From NCBI GenBank assembly GCA_023256475.1, contig JAGDXP010000023.1:1-33992 (forward strand): a stretch of 33,992 nt of DNA, written 5' to 3'. The DNA comes from Thermoplasmata archaeon (lineage in GTDB: Archaea; Thermoplasmatota; Thermoplasmata; Thermoplasmatales; GCA-001856825). Below the pieces are notes generated by a model. It had not been told where the DNA came from. It worked only from the letters and a program-made list of their open reading frames with translations, and searched no databases. Made by a program: the position numbers and the translations under genes. Positions 16,186 through 33,773 of the stretch are shown here, one piece after another; the stretch's first letter is position 1, and the number at the start of each line of letters is the position of its first letter.

Positions 16186-17106
16186 TTACACCCCTGGGAT
16201 ACTTATGCCCTCTTTTTCATTATACTTTCTATCAAATATTGCATATATTTCACCAAACTGGGTCTTCAACAGATAATGGAACATGATACCTCTTTCCTCG
16301 TTTATGATTCTTGCTTCTATGTTTCCGCCAATCTTTATTTTAGAAGGATGAACGAATAATCTTGAATTGTTGAAATTAATTATATTATAGCCTAGAAGTT
16401 TAGCAGTTTCCTCCTTCCTTGGATTATTAAGTATCTCTCCCTTATCTCCTTCCTCCACTATCTTTCCGTTACTTAAAACTGAAACCTTATCGGCCATAAT
16501 GGCACAATCATCAACGTCGTGTGTGACATAAATAACTGTGAGATTCATTGATTTAGCTAGATTCTTAATATACCAACGCATATTGTTTCGAAGGAAAGTA
16601 TCCAAAGAACTCAGGGGTTCATCCATGAGTATGATAGAAGGATTTATTATCAACGCCCTCGCCAGAGCCACCAATTGCTTCTGGCCACCACTCAACTCAA
16701 TTGGGTACTTATTCAATAAATTTAACAAACCGAATTTGCTTGCATACTCGTGCAATCTTTTTTCGATATCCTCGCTCTTATATTTTCTGACCATTAACCC
16801 GTATATGATGTTATCCTTCACTGTTAATGACGAGAAAAGTCCAAGGTCCTGGAATATGTAAGCTATATTTCTTTTTTCAGTGGGAACCTTAGTGATGTCC
16901 TTTCCATCTAATATAATTTTACCCTCATCAGGAGAAATTAGACCTGAAATTATGTTTAGAAGTGTAGTTTTTCCGGTTCCGGATTGCCCAAGGATAACCC
17001 TGAATTCTCCTGGAAGTACCTCCATACTGACCGAATTCAAAACGTATTCCTTCTCAAACCGTTTGCTTATTCCTTGTATGGAAATTTTTGCTTCCAGATT
17101 TACCAC
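16186..17106 (-). CDS. thiQ: Thiamine ABC transporter, ATP-binding subunit
   Basis: A 306-residue ABC ATPase that drives the importer encoded upstream. Walker A is GQSGTGKTT (residues 39-47), the signature is LSGGQKQ, Walker B is IILMDEP and the switch histidine is in VTHD. About 70 residues beyond the usual ThiQ length form a C-terminal extension (FVHPSKIKIGGNIEARI), a TOBE-like regulatory region typical of archaeal sugar and metal importers. The start is a GTG at 17106, overlapping thiP by 53 bases; no ATG is available before the nucleotide-binding fold. Thiamine specificity is inferred from the riboswitch and thiB. Confidence 0.88.
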   Translation of the reverse strand: MVNLEAKISIQGISKRFEKEYVLNSVSMEVLPGEFRVILGQSGTGKTTLLNIISGLISPDEGKIILDGKDITKVPTEKRNIAYIFQDLGLFSSLTVKDNIIYGLMVRKYKSEDIEKRLHEYASKFGLLNLLNKYPIELSGGQKQLVALARALIINPSIILMDEPLSSLDTFLRNNMRWYIKNLAKSMNLTVIYVTHDVDDCAIMADKVSVLSNGKIVEEGDKGEILNNPRKEETAKLLGYNIINFNNSRLFVHPSKIKIGGNIEARIINEERGIMFHYLLKTQFGEIYAIFDRKYNEKEGISIPGV

Positions 17107-18568
17107 TTATCCCAATTAGGTATATCAGGAATGTTGAAATAAATATTACAGTCACAAAGAGCTCAGATATTGCGTAAGCAACATTTATTTTTCTTAACAA
17201 GAACTCGTTATAGATTTCAACTGTTAAAGTCACGGTATTCTGAGTATAAACCGTTGCAATAGCTGAGAATTCCCCCATAATAGTTACGAATTCCAATGCG
17301 ACTATACCCATAAAGCTACTCCTTATCCTTCCTAGATAATAATATATTGTCGCTCCAATCCTAGAATCACCAAGTATAAAAGTAGAATTTCTCTCAGAAA
17401 ATGGTATGCGTAATATTGAATCTGAATAATTTCTGGCCATAAAAGGTAAAGAAATTGCAATGAATATCAATATTATGACATATGGCAAAGGTAAAAATGT
17501 TTGATAGATTAAGAAATATGAAAGAGCTATGGCAACCGGGGTAAGTGCGGTAGATGTTATAAAGATCAGATCCGATTTGTAACCAGAAATATCTGAAATT
17601 ACGAAAATTAATAGAAGTATAGATAAAATTACAGATATTGAGCTAAAAAGTAATGTATTTAACAGGGCTAACTTTATGGAATTTATATTCAATATTGATA
17701 GCAAATTCCAAAATGGAAAGCGTGAAAATAAGATGATTAGAGGAAGATAAAGGATGAATAAAATAATAGTTATTAAAACAAGAGCCACAAGTGATTTGAC
17801 TTTTGAAAATGCTTTAAAACTTGTTGGTTGAGAAATTGAGGGCATCTTAGAGATTATTAGATATGAAACAACAGGCAGAAGTAGAATAGAGAATTGAAGA
17901 ACAGCCATCGTGGACGCATTGGAAAAAGGGAAGGGACCTGGCATTATATACGTTCTCTTGAAGAGATAAATTAGTACCTCAAATGTCGAATACTCCGGAC
18001 CCCCTATTATTAAAGGTAGGCTAAATCCCTGAAAACACAGGATAAAAGTCAAAATGGCTCCGATCCACAGTCCCTTTGCTCCATTTCTTATGTATAATTT
18101 TATGAGCTGAATATCGGTAGCGCCCAATATTTTAGCCATCTGTATTTCTCTCTGATTTGTTCCCATGGCATATAGATATCCTAAAATTCCGACCATAGGA
18201 GCATTAAAAATAACGTTACCTAGAATTATTTCCATCAGGGGATTTTGAAGGCCAAATGCTGATATAATAGATATGGCAATTATTATCCCTGGCATTACAT
18301 ATGAAATGTACATTATGGCAATTATACCGTTAATTAATCTCCCATTATATACTAGAAGCAACACAGTAAGAATCAATCCAATTGCCAGAGATATTAAAGT
18401 TGAAGAAGAAGCCTGGATAATGGACTGCATTAGGGCCCTTTGAATCAGTAAAAAAATAAGATAATTGCTATGAAAATGCCATGCCTGAATACACAAAAAT
18501 ACTATAGGAAATAAAAATAATAGGATAAATAACCCAAAAAAAGTGAGATCATTTTGTTTCAATCTCAT
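17054..18568 (-). CDS. thiP: Thiamine ABC transporter, fused permease
   Basis: A 504-residue membrane protein with about twelve hydrophobic segments in two similar halves, the fused layout of ThiP and Fe3+-type permeases. Coupling-loop (EAA-type) regions that contact the ATPase are seen as AKILGATDIQLIKLYI near residue 144 and FILGDSRIGATIYYYLGRI near 395. The ATG at 18568 overlaps the thiB stop by 20 bases, so the three importer genes are tightly coupled. Length is close to bacterial ThiP. Substrate identity rests on the leader riboswitch and the binding-protein gene. Confidence 0.88.
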   Translation of the reverse strand: MRLKQNDLTFFGLFILLFLFPIVFLCIQAWHFHSNYLIFLLIQRALMQSIIQASSSTLISLAIGLILTVLLLVYNGRLINGIIAIMYISYVMPGIIIAISIISAFGLQNPLMEIILGNVIFNAPMVGILGYLYAMGTNQREIQMAKILGATDIQLIKLYIRNGAKGLWIGAILTFILCFQGFSLPLIIGGPEYSTFEVLIYLFKRTYIMPGPFPFSNASTMAVLQFSILLLPVVSYLIISKMPSISQPTSFKAFSKVKSLVALVLITIILFILYLPLIILFSRFPFWNLLSILNINSIKLALLNTLLFSSISVILSILLLIFVISDISGYKSDLIFITSTALTPVAIALSYFLIYQTFLPLPYVIILIFIAISLPFMARNYSDSILRIPFSERNSTFILGDSRIGATIYYYLGRIRSSFMGIVALEFVTIMGEFSAIATVYTQNTVTLTVEIYNEFLLRKINVAYAISELFVTVIFISTFLIYLIGISGKSGSKNFHTRNKQTV

Positions 18569-19634
18569 CCCACTCGAGCTCTAAATTTGACAGATTTGAA
18601 TAGATAAATGTATCATTGACGTATTGATTCAATGCTATTATCTGTACGGGACTGGGTATATATTGAAATACCTTGGGCAATGTTACCTGATCATTTACTG
18701 GAAACATCCATTCATTCAAGGGTATCTGATTCTGCACTTCACTTCCTAAAAACCAATTTACGAAAGCTTCATCTAAAGCTTTGTGAGTTGAAGAATTCAA
18801 TATACCTATCCCGAGTACTTCCATCCATGCATAGTAAGAATTTCCATATTTGAATGGGGTCGTACCTATAGGTGTATAATTAAAGTATTGGTTATATGCG
18901 GGATCTGTCAAGTATGAATAGAATAACTGCTTCTCTCCAGATTCAAATATATTGAACCCAGAGGACCAATCGTTAGTTATGTAGATGCTTTTTGCATTAA
19001 TCCAGAAATTTGTCCAGTTTTCCTTTAGAATATTTTCATAGAAGGCATACTCCTCAAGCAAGAATTCCTCACCTGTTATGCTGGTCAAAGGATTCTCCAC
19101 TATAAATTGAGAGCCTATGGAACTGTTGTAAAAGTCTGTTAAAGTTAAATTTCTAATAATGCTTAGCGGTAGAGGTCCGGTCAGGTTATAATCAGTCGTT
19201 AGAAAGGAATATTCGTATGGCACCACGTAACCCATGGAATCCATATATTTCATTGCTGTTTCATTTATATATGATTCATTGCTTACTGAATACTTATAGA
19301 AAAGACCAGATCTGTATGCAGCATAAGCATCAAGATTATTCAAACCTATAACAATATCGTACCCCTTTCCACCGGATTGTTCTACGGCATTAAGAAGATC
19401 TCCAGATGCGTTTTTTATTATTATGTTCACGTTATACCACTTTTCAAAATTCCCGAAAACATAGCTATAAGTTTCGTTGGGATTGGGACCATAATCTAAA
19501 AGTGTCGAATAGGTTAATATGGTAATTGTAACCTTTCCTTTATTTAGTATTTCAGGTTCTTCAAAATATACCAATCCTGCGACAACGAATATTATAGACA
19601 ATACTATAGCCGCAATATAATATATCCTTTTCAT
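18549..19634 (-). CDS. thiB: Thiamine-binding protein of the ABC importer
   Basis: A 361-residue extracellular solute-binding protein of the TbpA/ThiB type. Residues 5-25 form a hydrophobic N-terminal anchor with no lipobox cysteine, so it is probably membrane-tethered. After it come VTILTYSTLLDYGPNP, GYDIVIGLNNLDAY and a WMFPVND segment near the end, all matching thiamine-binding proteins. At least twelve N-x-S/T sequons are present, suggesting heavy N-glycosylation at the surface. The ATG at 19634 follows GGAGGGA, which is the 3' end of the TPP riboswitch, so thiamine pyrophosphate probably controls its translation. Confidence 0.92.
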   Translation of the reverse strand: MKRIYYIAAIVLSIIFVVAGLVYFEEPEILNKGKVTITILTYSTLLDYGPNPNETYSYVFGNFEKWYNVNIIIKNASGDLLNAVEQSGGKGYDIVIGLNNLDAYAAYRSGLFYKYSVSNESYINETAMKYMDSMGYVVPYEYSFLTTDYNLTGPLPLSIIRNLTLTDFYNSSIGSQFIVENPLTSITGEEFLLEEYAFYENILKENWTNFWINAKSIYITNDWSSGFNIFESGEKQLFYSYLTDPAYNQYFNYTPIGTTPFKYGNSYYAWMEVLGIGILNSSTHKALDEAFVNWFLGSEVQNQIPLNEWMFPVNDQVTLPKVFQYIPSPVQIIALNQYVNDTFIYSNLSNLELEWDEIETK

Positions 19635-19639
19635 TTATC

Positions 19640-19721
19640 TCCCTCCGCCAGTATTACCTGGATCAGGTTCTAAGGGTCGATCCTTTCAGGATCCTCTCAG
19701 CCCGTCACAACGAGCTCCCCC
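19640..19721 (-). promoter_or_regulatory. TPP (THI-box) riboswitch controlling thiBPQ
   Basis: The minus strand carries the full THI element. GGGGGAGC begins P2, CTGAGAGG is the pyrimidine-sensing core, GATCC and GGATC form the P3a hairpin, and CCTTAGAACCTGATC with the CCAG/CTGG hairpin forms the pyrophosphate-sensing arm. It closes with GGCGGAGGGA. That last segment also contains the Shine-Dalgarno sequence five bases before the thiB ATG, so TPP binding should hide the ribosome site. A TATA box at 19752-19764 puts the transcript start near 19732, just before the element. Class identity is clear; the switching mode is inference. Confidence 0.96.
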
Positions 19722-19751
19722 ACAGGACCTATCTACGGTATTGAAATTTGG

Positions 19752-30014: not shown

Positions 30015-30539
30015 TCACTGGGTTACCAGAACATATTCCTCTTCCTGTTTCTTGAACAACCCCGAATAAACTCCCCACTCTATAAATATAACTTCTAGTT
30101 CGTGTAGACCTGAGGGTGAATTGAACCTTTGTATCCCATTTCTTATTAGTTCCTTTTGTAAATCTTCTAATTTGAATTTTCTCATTTTAATTGCCGTATA
30201 GAATGGCTCAATATCTTTGATTGAATCTCTTATGATTTCCTTTCTTTTTTTAATTCCAGCTTTTATAAATTCTACACCCTTCTCTGTAGTAGAAATATCT
30301 CCATTGTCCAATTTTACAAAATTTAAAAGTGAAGCAGTATAAACAATGGGCATTAAATCATCAACATCAACTTCCATTTCCTTCTCCAACATATACAGAT
30401 CTGTCTTTCCGTTAAATATATTATTTAGCGTATATAATAAACCTACCAAGTCCGCTATTCTTGAATCTGGATCTATTACTTCTTTCATCAGCATTAGCAA
30501 TATTTTCATTTCTGATATTAATTTTTCTAATTCTTTCAA
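30015..30539 (-). CDS. AAA-associated domain protein next to a NitT/TauT-type importer
   Basis: A 174-residue soluble protein resembling the AAA-associated C-terminal domain, which in other organisms is fused to ATPases of nitrate/taurine-type importers. Supporting points are DLYMLEKEMEVDVDDLMPIV, the LxFVKLDNGDISTTEKG segment, and the C-terminal FIEWGVYSGLFKK. Here it is a separate gene just downstream of the fused permease, the stand-alone form of that domain. It could regulate the transporter. The start is uncertain: the first possible codon is TTG at 30539, 21 bases after the permease stop, and an ATG is at 30509. No DNA-binding motif is evident. Confidence 0.72.
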   Translation of the reverse strand: MKELEKLISEMKILLMLMKEVIDPDSRIADLVGLLYTLNNIFNGKTDLYMLEKEMEVDVDDLMPIVYTASLLNFVKLDNGDISTTEKGVEFIKAGIKKRKEIIRDSIKDIEPFYTAIKMRKFKLEDLQKELIRNGIQRFNSPSGLHELEVIFIEWGVYSGLFKKQEEEYVLVTQ

Positions 30540-30560
30540 AATTAAGAACAGGTAAAGATA

Positions 30561-32192
30561 TTATGCAGCATAAATGCCCTCTTCAGCCACATATTTCTTT
30601 CTCGCCAAATCCATTAGATGCTTTGTGAATAACAGAGAATATAACACAACTACTATGGAGAAGATAAACGACGACCATGCTGCTATCTGTATATTTCCTT
30701 GCAAGGTTGCCTGTGAAATATATTTCATTAGACCAACCTTTACCTCCAAGTTCTTGTCTCCTATTATATTTGGCCAGTATTCACCTATCATTAATCCTCC
30801 CCATGCACTGTTTATGGTAGATGTTATCCCTGATATTAAGTAAGGGAATGTTCCAGGTAATATTATATACCTTAATTTTTGGAAGAAATTCATTTGAAAA
30901 TTCTCCATTACATCAAAATATTCGCTGGGGAAGGCCTTCAGTCCCATCCAGAATGAATACAGCACATAGTAGAAAGTACTTATAAAGCCAATTGAAAGAA
31001 CATATATCTCAGTAGTTAGAATTCCGAAATAGTGCAACACAAATGGATATGTAATACCGAATACGATTGGAAAATAAATAGGTGGTGGGAATGCACTGAA
31101 TGTCTGAATTATTGGAACTAATATAGCTTCTCCACGCTTGTGCATTGCTAAATAATAACCTACAAGAACTGCAAAAACTAATGAAATTATTGCAATTATG
31201 GCTATTCTGATATAATCAAAGAGCATATTAAGGAGGATGAATGGAGTTAGGGAAAGGAGATAATCCCAAGTCACAGAGGGTATCGAGATAACCAATTTTA
31301 TGGAATAATACAAGATCAGAATGAATACAAAAATTGCAATAACTCCTGGAATATACTTTACCCAATTGTATCCATGTTCCTCTTTTTCAAATATCTCTTC
31401 CTCTGGGACATTATTTCTGAATCTATAGTATCTCGCTAACCTACTTAGAGGGGTCACGGTTATAGAAGATATAACCCTTGTAGTTTGTTTCAAATTGATT
31501 CTACCCCTTCTTAATATAGGTGCATCAGTATCCACGGTGTACTTCGCAACTGCGTATTTGCTAAATTCCCTTAATAAATATACTGATATTGCAATTATTA
31601 TGGCCATTATTAACAATGAGTAATAAACGTATGTTATCTCATTCCTGGAATAGAAATAAACTATAACGGATCCTATGCCGAATGTTTCATACTGGTGAAC
31701 GCCTATTGAAAATACTTCACTCACCGTAATATAGAAGAATGCATCCGCAAAACTTGGGAATAAGTTGGCAGCAATCCTAGGGATAGAAAATGGTATGTAA
31801 ATATATTTCAATTTCTCTCCAAGGGTAAAATTGTAGTTTTCGCCCACCTCGACCATTTCATTTGGGACGGTTTTGTAGGCTTGATATTCCCCCATCCATA
31901 TATTCCAAACCACTGCAGTAAATACAAGAAAATCGGCTGCCAGTTCAACACCTAAAATTCCTCCTATGGCATTGACGAAAAGTACCAGAACTATTGGAAA
32001 GAATGATATTACTGGGACAGACTCAAAAATTTCATTCAATGGAATATAAATGTTCTCAAATATCTTGCTTTTGATCGCTGCATATGATAATAACCATCCA
32101 GAGGTTATTGACAGCAATATGATTCCAAATACTCTTAATGTAGTTACAATTGCCGCAAAGATTATAATTTCAGTAACATACAATAAATTCAC
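30561..32192 (-). CDS. Fused ABC permease, NitT/TauT (anion) type
   Basis: A 543-residue membrane protein made of two similar permease halves of five to six helices each, separated by a soluble linker near residues 230-280. Each half has an ATPase-coupling loop: GENYNFTLGEKLKYIYIPFS near residue 117 and MENFQMNFFQKLRYIILPG near 430. This doubled permease is the type annotated as an archaeal anion transporter. The start is a GTG overlapping the ATPase stop (GTGA), with AGGGGG just upstream acting as ribosome site. The substrate is unknown, and no binding protein is encoded beside it. Confidence 0.85.
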   Translation of the reverse strand: MNLLYVTEIIIFAAIVTTLRVFGIILLSITSGWLLSYAAIKSKIFENIYIPLNEIFESVPVISFFPIVLVLFVNAIGGILGVELAADFLVFTAVVWNIWMGEYQAYKTVPNEMVEVGENYNFTLGEKLKYIYIPFSIPRIAANLFPSFADAFFYITVSEVFSIGVHQYETFGIGSVIVYFYSRNEITYVYYSLLIMAIIIAISVYLLREFSKYAVAKYTVDTDAPILRRGRINLKQTTRVISSITVTPLSRLARYYRFRNNVPEEEIFEKEEHGYNWVKYIPGVIAIFVFILILYYSIKLVISIPSVTWDYLLSLTPFILLNMLFDYIRIAIIAIISLVFAVLVGYYLAMHKRGEAILVPIIQTFSAFPPPIYFPIVFGITYPFVLHYFGILTTEIYVLSIGFISTFYYVLYSFWMGLKAFPSEYFDVMENFQMNFFQKLRYIILPGTFPYLISGITSTINSAWGGLMIGEYWPNIIGDKNLEVKVGLMKYISQATLQGNIQIAAWSSFIFSIVVVLYSLLFTKHLMDLARKKYVAEEGIYAA

Positions 32193-32986
32193 CCCCTAAC
32201 ATTGGAGGATGAACCTAGGTAAGTGTAAAGTTGATCCAACATCCTGTTAAATTCATCACTTCTAGGATTTCTGGGCCTCGGTAAATTCACCTCTATCTTT
32301 GCAACCACAGTAGCTGGCATATTATTCAATATGAAAATCTCATCAGAGAGCTCCAGCACTTCGGTTAGATTATGAGATACTAAAACTACTGCCTTCAGAT
32401 TTGTTTCTGGATTAAATAGAATGTTATAGATATCCTGCCTTAGACCTTCTGCAGTCAATTCGTCCAAATGTGCAAATGGTTCGTCCATTAACAGCATTAG
32501 TGGTTCTGCAGCTAGTGCTCTGGCAATAGATACCCTTTGCCTCATACCACCGCTCATTTCCTTTGGATAAAGGTCCTCAAATCCCTGTAAACCTACCATT
32601 TCAAGAGCTTTCCTTGCCCTGTAATTTTCCTCTTCCTCTGTCAGATTCTTTGATTTCAGAGAGATTTTAACATTCTCTAAAGCGGTCATCCATGGGAATG
32701 TAACTATTGATTGATGTATTAAAACAATCTGAGGATTGGGTTTTGTTATCCTTTTACCTCTAAGATAAATATTACCTGAATCTGGCTTTAGAAATCCGCC
32801 TAATAATCTCAAAAATGTAGATTTACCTATTCCTGAACGACCAATAACTGATACAAATCTATTTTCATTAATAGATAAATTGATGTTCTCAAAGACTTTA
32901 TAACCGTTTTCATAGGTAAAATTGAGATTCTCAACTCTCATGATTTCATTAAGCTGATTCTCGTGGGAATTATTATTTAAAGTCAT
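32189..32986 (-). CDS. ABC transporter ATP-binding protein, NitT/TauT type
   Basis: A 265-residue ABC ATPase. Walker A is GRSGIGKST, the signature reads MSGGMRQRV (Met-Arg variant typical of nitrate/taurine/sulfonate systems), Walker B is LLMDEPFAHLD and the switch histidine is in VSHN. I choose the ATG at 32986, preceded by AGGGGG at about seven bases, because a TATA-like sequence at 33054-33067 places the RNA start near 33034. The frame extends upstream to a TTG at 33040, and the ABC domain itself would allow an ATG at 32941. It is first in a three-gene unit. Confidence 0.88.
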   Translation of the reverse strand: MTLNNNSHENQLNEIMRVENLNFTYENGYKVFENINLSINENRFVSVIGRSGIGKSTFLRLLGGFLKPDSGNIYLRGKRITKPNPQIVLIHQSIVTFPWMTALENVKISLKSKNLTEEEENYRARKALEMVGLQGFEDLYPKEMSGGMRQRVSIARALAAEPLMLLMDEPFAHLDELTAEGLRQDIYNILFNPETNLKAVVLVSHNLTEVLELSDEIFILNNMPATVVAKIEVNLPRPRNPRSDEFNRMLDQLYTYLGSSSNVRG

Positions 32987-33053
32987 GCAGTTTCCCCCTA
33001 AATTATATTTATTGCCGCATATTATTCTCTGGAACTTCAAACATTAGGAATTT

Positions 33054-33067
33054 ATCTTATATAAGAT
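33054..33067 (-). promoter_or_regulatory. Palindromic TATA region of the importer operon
   Basis: ATCTTATATAAGAT is a perfect 14-base palindrome whose centre TTATATAA is a TATA box. Transcription would start about 26 bases on, near 33034, leaving a leader of about 48 bases before the ATG at 32986. A repressor bound at the palindrome would block TBP, but that is inference. Confidence 0.5.
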
Positions 33068-33480
33068 TTTACTAAGTACCATTATTATTTTAATAGTGAA
33101 ATGATTTTTGAGAACTTTTGATAATAATCGAAACAGCACTTAGATGTGGAAGATCTCCGTCACCGAGACGAAACATTGAGAAAATCTTAGATTTTGTGTA
33201 ATAATTTAATTAAAACCTCACCTTGATTAATCAAGCTGTGGATATTTTCCCATGAAAATTTTTATTTAATAAACATCATTATGACTTCCTCATTATATAA
33301 AGAGCCTTAGAAACCAATTCCGATACAAACAAATCATAAAGATACTCACATTTTCAATTTCCATGCTCATCAATCAACGTAGATTGATAAGTTTTAGTGA
33401 AATTTATTTCATGAAAATAACTTCTAAAAACCACTCTCATTCCCAGTGGAATCCCACATTTTTATAAAACGGATACGACA
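33068..33480. other. Gap upstream of the importer, no gene seen
   Basis: About 410 bases of AT-rich sequence without a convincing reading frame. It contains one clear small hairpin, ATCAATC-AACGTA-GATTGAT (33369-33388), and a near-palindrome TTATTTCATGAAAATAA around 33405-33421. I see no transposase remnant, tRNA or repeat array. Confidence 0.5.
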
Positions 33481-33630
33481 TTTATATCATTATTCTCCGC
33501 CTAACTCATAATAGCATGATATGATCAACGGGCCCGAGGGGATTAGTATCTTTATTGGTCTTCAATCGTATCATGACTCATTGTAAATCTAACGAATTCT
33601 AGTTCCAATTGTTAATAACAATTATTTTAT
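33481..33630 (+). ncRNA. Candidate structured small RNA (speculative)
   Basis: A GC-rich patch in an AT-rich gap. TATA-like TTTATATC (33481-33488) would start RNA near 33511. Just after that, CATGATA (33515-33521) can pair with TATCATG (33569-33575), enclosing the self-complementary CGGGCCCG (33529-33536) and a small ATTG-GTCTT-CAAT hairpin (33554-33566). Further on, AATTGTT-AAT-AACAATT (33607-33623) followed by ATTTTAT resembles a termination hairpin. It matches no RNA family I know; it is not a tRNA, since the enclosed length and arms do not fit. The pairing is seen; that it is a gene is inference. Confidence 0.3.
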
Positions 33631-33773
33631 AATTAGTTGGTAAATCCAAACTTACCAGAATTTTCCAGATAAGGTTTTAGAATTGGAATTGATTTGATAT
33701 TGACGATTGGTGATCTTCTTTGGTAGGAACCTATATACTTAACAAGAATTGGAAAGAAGAAATTGAAAACATA

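Follow-up and report, generated by a model that had tools for sequence, protein, structure and literature searches.

The closest described counterpart of the system considered here comes from Candidatus Liberibacter asiaticus, in which Li et al. (2012, PMC3688454) described CLIBASIA_02415/02420 as a Nrt/Ssu/Tau-like 'possible novel ABC system' (ATP-binding cassette, ABC) and guessed its substrate to be an oxoacid ion. The subject of this study is a three-gene operon in a 33,992-base stretch of DNA (the window; JAGDXP010000023.1), which is the entire contig C19 of a Thermoplasmata archaeon genome bin (G000; 1.39 Mb, 28 contigs, 89% complete). Common to the Liberibacter system and the window are a two-domain permease chain, a NitT-type ATPase, a PF09821 winged-helix domain and the lack of a binding protein, but PF09821 is fused to the ATPase in Liberibacter and is a separate gene in the window. 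The architecture has been known since 2012 from one bacterium, and the archaeal form with split PF09821 is a variant of it. What is new here is a lead to Mg2+ as the substrate, for which the literature searched, in the parts available, holds only a remark on Bifidobacterium breve (PMC5746004).

Two other systems are useful for comparison. Cyanobacterial CmpBCD and NrtBCD have the nearest solved permeases by sequence and fold and an ATPase similar to that of the window, but their permeases are single-domain, they have a binding protein (CmpA/NrtA adjoining NrtB) and they fall outside the doubled family in the tree described below. For the Nramp-related importer NrmT (NRMT; PMC4072509, PMC8806188), too, the clue was a Mg2+ riboswitch that precedes a transporter not expected there, and this clue led others to its identification as a Mg2+ importer (PMC4072509). 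However, NrmT is a non-ABC carrier of another fold and is backed by rescue and transport experiments (PMC4072509, PMC8806188). The top NCBIfam match of the window ATPase was ABC_ATP_SaoA of the SaoABC system (E 7.3e-55), but membership in SaoA was rejected at 186 bits against a cut-off of 360. The products of mgtB and mgtA are P-type ATPases, and it is these genes that 'magnesium ABC transporter' denotes in two papers. No title or abstract start in the literature search named a Mg2+ ABC importer of this kind, and a 2026 review of bacterial Mg2+ transporters (PMC13209247) never uses 'ATP-binding cassette' and has the word ABC in a reference link alone.

The reading favored in this study is that the operon specifies an ABC importer of Mg2+, or of a divalent cation closely linked to it, which would need no binding protein and in which the PF09821 protein would be a cytosolic regulator. 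On the comparative evidence presented here, the chances that this reading is correct are put at about even.

The three-gene operon

The genes form a tight operon, all on the minus strand:

32189-33040, minus strand, ABC ATPase of NitT/TauT type (open reading frame, ORF; Pfam ABC_tran E 6.7e-31; Walker A/B)
30561-32192, minus strand, doubled permease, a single chain of 543 amino acids that contains two type-I importer permease domains (Pfam BPD_transp_1, two stretches)
30015-30539, minus strand, stand-alone PF09821 (AAA_assoc_C) winged-helix protein (Pfam E 1.1e-28)

The permease overlaps the ATPase stop by 4 nt (GTGA) and the PF09821 gene follows 21 nt beyond the permease, which together with the ORFs and Pfam matches bears out the original prediction that ATPase, doubled permease and separate AAA-associated protein are a tight unit. 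The window permease is presumably a member of the 'duplicated permease' class COG4986, an assignment made from matching architecture; its Pfam match is to BPD_transp_1, and no match to CorA, MgtE or Nramp was listed. Rather than at the listed 33040, the ATPase more likely starts at 32986, where an ATG follows a G-rich stretch, which makes the protein about 265 amino acids long. Its Walker A and B motifs are intact, and translation gives MSGGMRQR as its signature. The PF09821 proteins of relatives start near the equivalent of 30494, at about 159 amino acids (alignment of 25). The roughly 650 bases upstream of the ATPase (33067-33719) hold no ORF of at least 80 amino acids and no Rfam match at gathering score.

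The same bin contains a second, divergent set (C2:9364-12315; L031), made up of PF09821, an ATPase encoded on the opposite strand and a permease that shares 32% identity with that of the window. The genes flanking it encode a V-ATPase I-subunit and a thioredoxin-like protein (DsbH), and this order is repeated in two other genomes (G003, G005).

Doubled permeases in archaea and bacteria

Among named records, the nearest permease is 90% identical and lies in a Euryarchaeota bin, and further carriers are found in Thermoplasma, Ferroplasma and Acidiplasma. A tblastn search of plasmid records gave 73 matching records, the best 20 of 73 covering 90-97% of the query at 23-27% identity. From the 52 plasmid records with at least 80% coverage, 21 bacterial loci were chosen for organism spread, not at random. 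A tree of permease halves was then calculated from 36 sequences (84 distinct permease sequences, 72 of at least 520 amino acids kept, 36 used). In this tree the archaeal and bacterial N-halves formed one group (100/97) and the C-halves another (99/93), and TauC, SsuC and two NrtB fell apart from both, though the long branches of TauC and SsuC make the position of the outgroup less secure. The Tsukamurella frame was trimmed to its last 600 residues, two of the sequences (L074, L077) are near-copies, and the tree includes neither the Liberibacter protein itself nor Meiothermus (L136), whose locus is among the 21 but whose permease was removed by the sequence filter. Because the N- and C-halves each group archaea with bacteria, the duplication would predate the archaeal-bacterial divergence within the doubled-permease family. 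The tree indicates that the archaeal and bacterial doubled permeases are one family of common ancestry.

Thermogymnomonas (L086) had no long intact permease frame that could be found and a partial PF09821 match. A DNA search of Escherichia coli genomes with the Escherichia albertii stretch gave no record covering 80%, and the ten listed places lie under IS3 transposases.

Mg2+-related elements at bacterial loci

All 21 bacterial loci were included in Rfam searches. A Mg2+ link was found in 9 of the 21 loci, representing 7 of 17 genera; as such a link counted a nearby M-box, mgtC leader RNA or mgtC gene. An M-box or mgtC leader stands ahead of the gene run in 4 of the 21; none was found at the window operon. 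The linked loci are:

Enterococcus raffinosus, M-box 57 nt before the permease (Rfam; leader at L126 5687-5853)
Enterococcus gilvus, M-box 56 nt before the permease (Rfam)
Tsukamurella, M-box heading an mgtC-permease-ATPase run (Rfam)
Escherichia albertii, mgtC leader RNA 610 nt ahead of the permease, from which a short hypothetical gene separates it (Rfam)
Cupriavidus and Aureimonas, MgtC/SapB gene directly after the pair
Azospirillum (two), MgtC/SapB gene after one cation-diffusion-facilitator gene beyond the pair
Mycolicibacterium plasmid (L183; NZ_CP122996 10000-22500), M-box, MgtE_N-CBS, two Nramp-family genes and mgtC within about 9 kb

In Mycolicibacterium, whose plasmid came from a mine, the permease-ATPase pair lies divergently beside the cluster of Mg2+ genes. 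The Nramp protein inspected there reads DPSG and TTIT and fits the DxxG-TxxA/T signature that has been published for Mg2+-type Nramp members (PMC8806188). An M-box preceding a COG4986 permease has also been published for B. breve, together with a comment by the authors on metal homeostasis (PMC5746004). A second M-box in the Enterococcus raffinosus stretch (L126 1218-1384, plus strand) precedes a 395-amino-acid frame (1405-2592) that by eye is a LytR-like cell-wall protein.

The link to Mg2+ is one of regulation and neighborhood only, and MgtC is a Mg2+-response gene that is not generally accepted as a Mg2+ importer. Both points, along with the fact that the fold relatives are anion importers, would fit a system that belongs to the Mg2+-starvation response but has a different solute as its cargo, such as phosphate or another anion, potassium or an envelope component. 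This is considered unlikely, because an M-box nearly always precedes a Mg2+ transporter (PMC4072509) and the archaeal carriers are mostly without CorA and MgtE, as described below.

Genes for other metals were also found beside the bacterial pairs, including a canonical Nramp (DPGN, ATVM) at the Thermus locus; Paraburkholderia has a VIT-family gene, and one Pantoea locus has iron exporter genes nearby. These, the cation diffusion facilitator of the two Azospirillum loci and the full-length fold match of the permease to a ferric importer permease (9j4r) could be taken to suggest that a transition metal (Mn2+, Fe2+ or similar) is imported and not Mg2+. However, the RNA elements directly ahead of the permease run are of the Mg2+ type, and the only riboswitch of the Mn2+ type (L129) lies on the opposite strand and adjoins a sodium:calcium antiporter gene, which makes a transition-metal importer very unlikely.

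Absence of a binding protein

No binding-protein gene belonging to the ABC set was seen in the window, in which not every ORF was scanned against Pfam. The one binding protein of the window, an SBP_bac_1 protein at 18549-19634, is in another operon with its own ATPase and a 504-amino-acid membrane protein. That operon (16186-19634, minus strand; SBP_bac_1 binding protein, membrane protein, ABC ATPase) is headed by a thiamine pyrophosphate (TPP) riboswitch at 19622-19731, minus strand, and probably serves thiamine uptake in the archaeon.

Since the window is the whole contig, relatives were examined in place of the DNA just beyond it. The doubled permease was present in 36 of 61 related genomes. 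The genome-wide search for binding proteins covered the NitT-type families PF09084 and PF13379, which were over cut-off in only 1 of the 36 carriers, a marginal case (G033; 21.1 bits vs a cut-off of 20.5), compared to 5 of the 25 non-carriers, and each family was found in 12 of 14 control genomes. The bin that holds the window (G000) had neither. When 20 archaeal permease stretches were fetched (two of which overlap), no cluster beyond ATPase, permease and PF09821 exceeded four members, and ten proteins from five of these stretches belonged to no binding-protein family in Pfam. No binding protein was listed beside the pair in the 20 annotated bacterial loci, for which the plasmid gene table is incomplete; the Enterococcus raffinosus locus is without annotation and its reading frames were inspected instead. 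An assembly gap was rejected as the cause, because 35 of 36 carriers agree and several of the genomes are single contigs. The absent binding protein is a conserved trait and not a gap of one assembly.

The original prediction that the unit has no dedicated binding protein is upheld by these data, and the co-conserved partner that it proposed to look for in the rest of the genome and in relatives was sought among NitT-type families and neighbors, where none recurred. It also regarded import without such a protein as unusual. The trait is conserved and the locus is no lone oddity; a system built this way had already been reported in 2012 (PMC3688454).

A NitT/TauT-type anion importer whose binding protein is distant or unrecognized would be in keeping with the ATPase and permease profiles, which are nearest to nitrate, taurine and sulfonate systems (with NCBIfam matches below equivalog cut-offs), and with CmpB and NrtB as the nearest solved structures. 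It would also be in keeping with the restriction of the genome-wide search to NitT-type families and with the SBP_bac_1 protein that the bin holds in its other operon. Public annotation calls the ATPase a 'nitrate/sulfonate/bicarbonate ABC transporter' in 17 of the 21 bacterial loci. An importer of this kind is nonetheless quite unlikely given the scarcity of PF09084/PF13379 in carriers relative to non-carriers, the lack of a recurrent extra neighbor in the 20 archaeal stretches and the lack of any binding protein listed beside the bacterial pairs. The earlier focus on phosphate, sulfate and nitrogen limitation rests on the NitT/TauT label; the comparative evidence points to Mg2+ instead.

CorA, MgtE and Nramp in archaeal genomes

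CorA or MgtE was over cut-off in 1 of the 36 permease carriers vs 20 of the 25 non-carriers (Fisher p 1.6e-10). In a sample of the phylum, where PF09821 stands in for the permease and three sub-cut-off matches are uncounted, the corresponding numbers were 5 of 45 PF09821 carriers vs 172 of 247 others (p 1e-13); both p values ignore shared ancestry. Seven named carrier genomes from three phyla had no CorA or MgtE over cut-off and two weak sub-cut-off MgtE matches, though the seven are not independent, since two (L063, L076) seem to have been sampled already (their PF09821 places equal those of G028 and G270) and two (L074/L077) are near-copies. Two carriers (G043, G058) have none of CorA, MgtE and Nramp.

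The Nramp signature was read from one match per genome in 20 of 39 Nramp-holding genomes (L162-L181). The unusual form DxxS-AxxM was seen in 19 of the 20 archaeal Nramp-related proteins, which are without the usual histidine and keep the methionine linked to transition metals, and the remaining protein (G057) has the Mg2+-type DxxG-TxxA. The idea that all archaeal Nramp-related proteins are of the Mg2+ type was rejected because those 19 are without the published signature.

Several observations weigh against Mg2+ as the substrate. The split in CorA and MgtE follows family lines: across families f1 to f6, permease carriers number 10/15, 0/1, 5/5, 0/18, 0/1 and 21/21, and CorA/MgtE holders 0, 1, 0, 18, 1 and 1, with five f1 bins (76-89% complete) being without permease, CorA and MgtE. 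The control genomes of Sulfolobus acidocaldarius and Synechococcus elongatus hold both PF09821 and CorA, so there is no general mutual exclusion. A control search for Nramp (PF01566) found it in 34 of 36 carriers vs 5 of 25 non-carriers. Because Nramp shares the distribution of the carriers, the CorA/MgtE pattern cannot single out the ABC system, and through this control the pattern by itself was rejected as proof of Mg2+. Additionally, 12 of the 21 bacterial loci have no Mg2+ link, archaeal and bacterial permeases are only 23-27% identical among the best 20 of 73 and substrates can change, and the nearest solved relatives carry bicarbonate and nitrate. The Rfam scan of the window found the TPP riboswitch and two tRNAs only, with no cation riboswitch. 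When eight Mg/Mn/cation neighbor proteins were compared with the archaeal-locus frames by phmmer, no Mg2+ gene was found beside the operon, and the sole match was a Na:Ca antiporter-like frame (L046). The distribution would fit Mg2+ uptake through either the ABC system or the Nramp-related protein, or through the two together.

Structure of the permease

The AlphaFold2 model of the permease (predicted local distance difference test, pLDDT, 76.6) has a type-I importer fold. Its nearest solved folds are CmpB and NrtB, and FbpB, a doubled ferric permease, matches it over a long stretch but loosely (9j4r; template modeling score, TM, 0.57; root-mean-square deviation 9.4). Residues T92, N97, Y103 and N143 of the first half, together with Y409 of the second, are invariant in 36 members and different in all of TauC, SsuC and two NrtB, while E159 and E471 are common to the doubled family and these four proteins.

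The lack of a binding protein and the presence of a winged-helix domain would also suit a membrane-bound sensor or regulator that is made of ABC parts and transports no solute, a doubt that Li et al. voice as well (PMC3688454). Of the alternatives considered this is the least probable, as the importer fold and the intact ATPase motifs argue against it. The permease is also counted among the essential genes of Liberibacter crescens (PMC4837290), which fits uptake but is no proof of it.

The PF09821 protein

A PF09821 gene was found in 27 of 34 named archaeal loci, on the permease strand in 16 and on the other strand in 11. In the other 7 it was not within the fetched stretches, but in 4 of these (three Nitrososphaerota and one Aramenus) the genome holds PF09821 outside the fetched flank. 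The bacterial ATPases are 413-459 amino acids long in 17 of the 21 loci, with a C-terminus that aligns with PF09821 (confirmed by Pfam in 3 of 3 tried). The ATPase is short (244-260 amino acids) in the other 4, namely E. albertii, two Enterococcus and one Pantoea, and PF09821 was absent by Pfam in the 2 of these that were tried. Because PF09821 is kept whether fused, adjacent, flipped or distant, the protein is best read as an accessory subunit. The same retention makes a control subunit, as the original prediction proposed, plausible, although regulation itself is something that we infer from the sequences.

The AlphaFold2 model of the window protein (pLDDT 91.6) has a helix-strand order that suits a winged helix, the fold that Li et al. 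inferred for the Liberibacter domain (PMC3688454). A sequence search of the Protein Data Bank with the PF09821 alignment returned nothing, and a fold search with the model gave no match at E 0.001 or below; the weak matches are winged-helix proteins, IclR and MarR regulators among them, and many superpose poorly. Six acidic residues (E52, E54, E56, D58, D60, D61) are invariant in the Thermoplasmatota set, and DNA binding by this stretch is disfavored because the residues are invariantly acidic there. That they sense Mg2+ is speculation, and they are kept only in part by the second set of the same bin and by the bacterial versions.

Proposed model and significance

The model proposed here is that Mg2+ (or a closely linked divalent cation) would be imported directly from outside without a solute-binding protein, chiefly at Mg2+ scarcity. 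The fused permease would work with an ATPase dimer, and the polar residues T92, N97, Y103, N143 and Y409 may help form the ion path as a selective site that replaces the binding protein. ATP would power uptake when Mg2+ outside is low, and the PF09821 protein may adjust the ATPase from the cytosol, as the fused form would in bacteria.

A broader proposal, more tentative and somewhat short of an even chance, is that the family would be a further dedicated class of Mg2+ importer beside CorA, MgtE, MgtA/B and NrmT, namely a binding-protein-free ABC system. It would be a main Mg2+ route in many archaea without CorA or MgtE and would extend over at least Proteobacteria, Firmicutes, Actinobacteria, Cyanobacteria and Deinococcota plus three archaeal phyla. 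Its gating would come from the cytosolic side, through a detachable winged-helix subunit able to sense Mg2+ via conserved acidic residues. Importers of the type-I fold are regarded as dependent on binding proteins, and a widespread family that does without one would put this view to the test. Should Mg2+ be the substrate, the annotation as nitrate/sulfonate/bicarbonate transporter would be corrected, and the system would fill a gap in those archaea and bacteria that are without CorA and MgtE.

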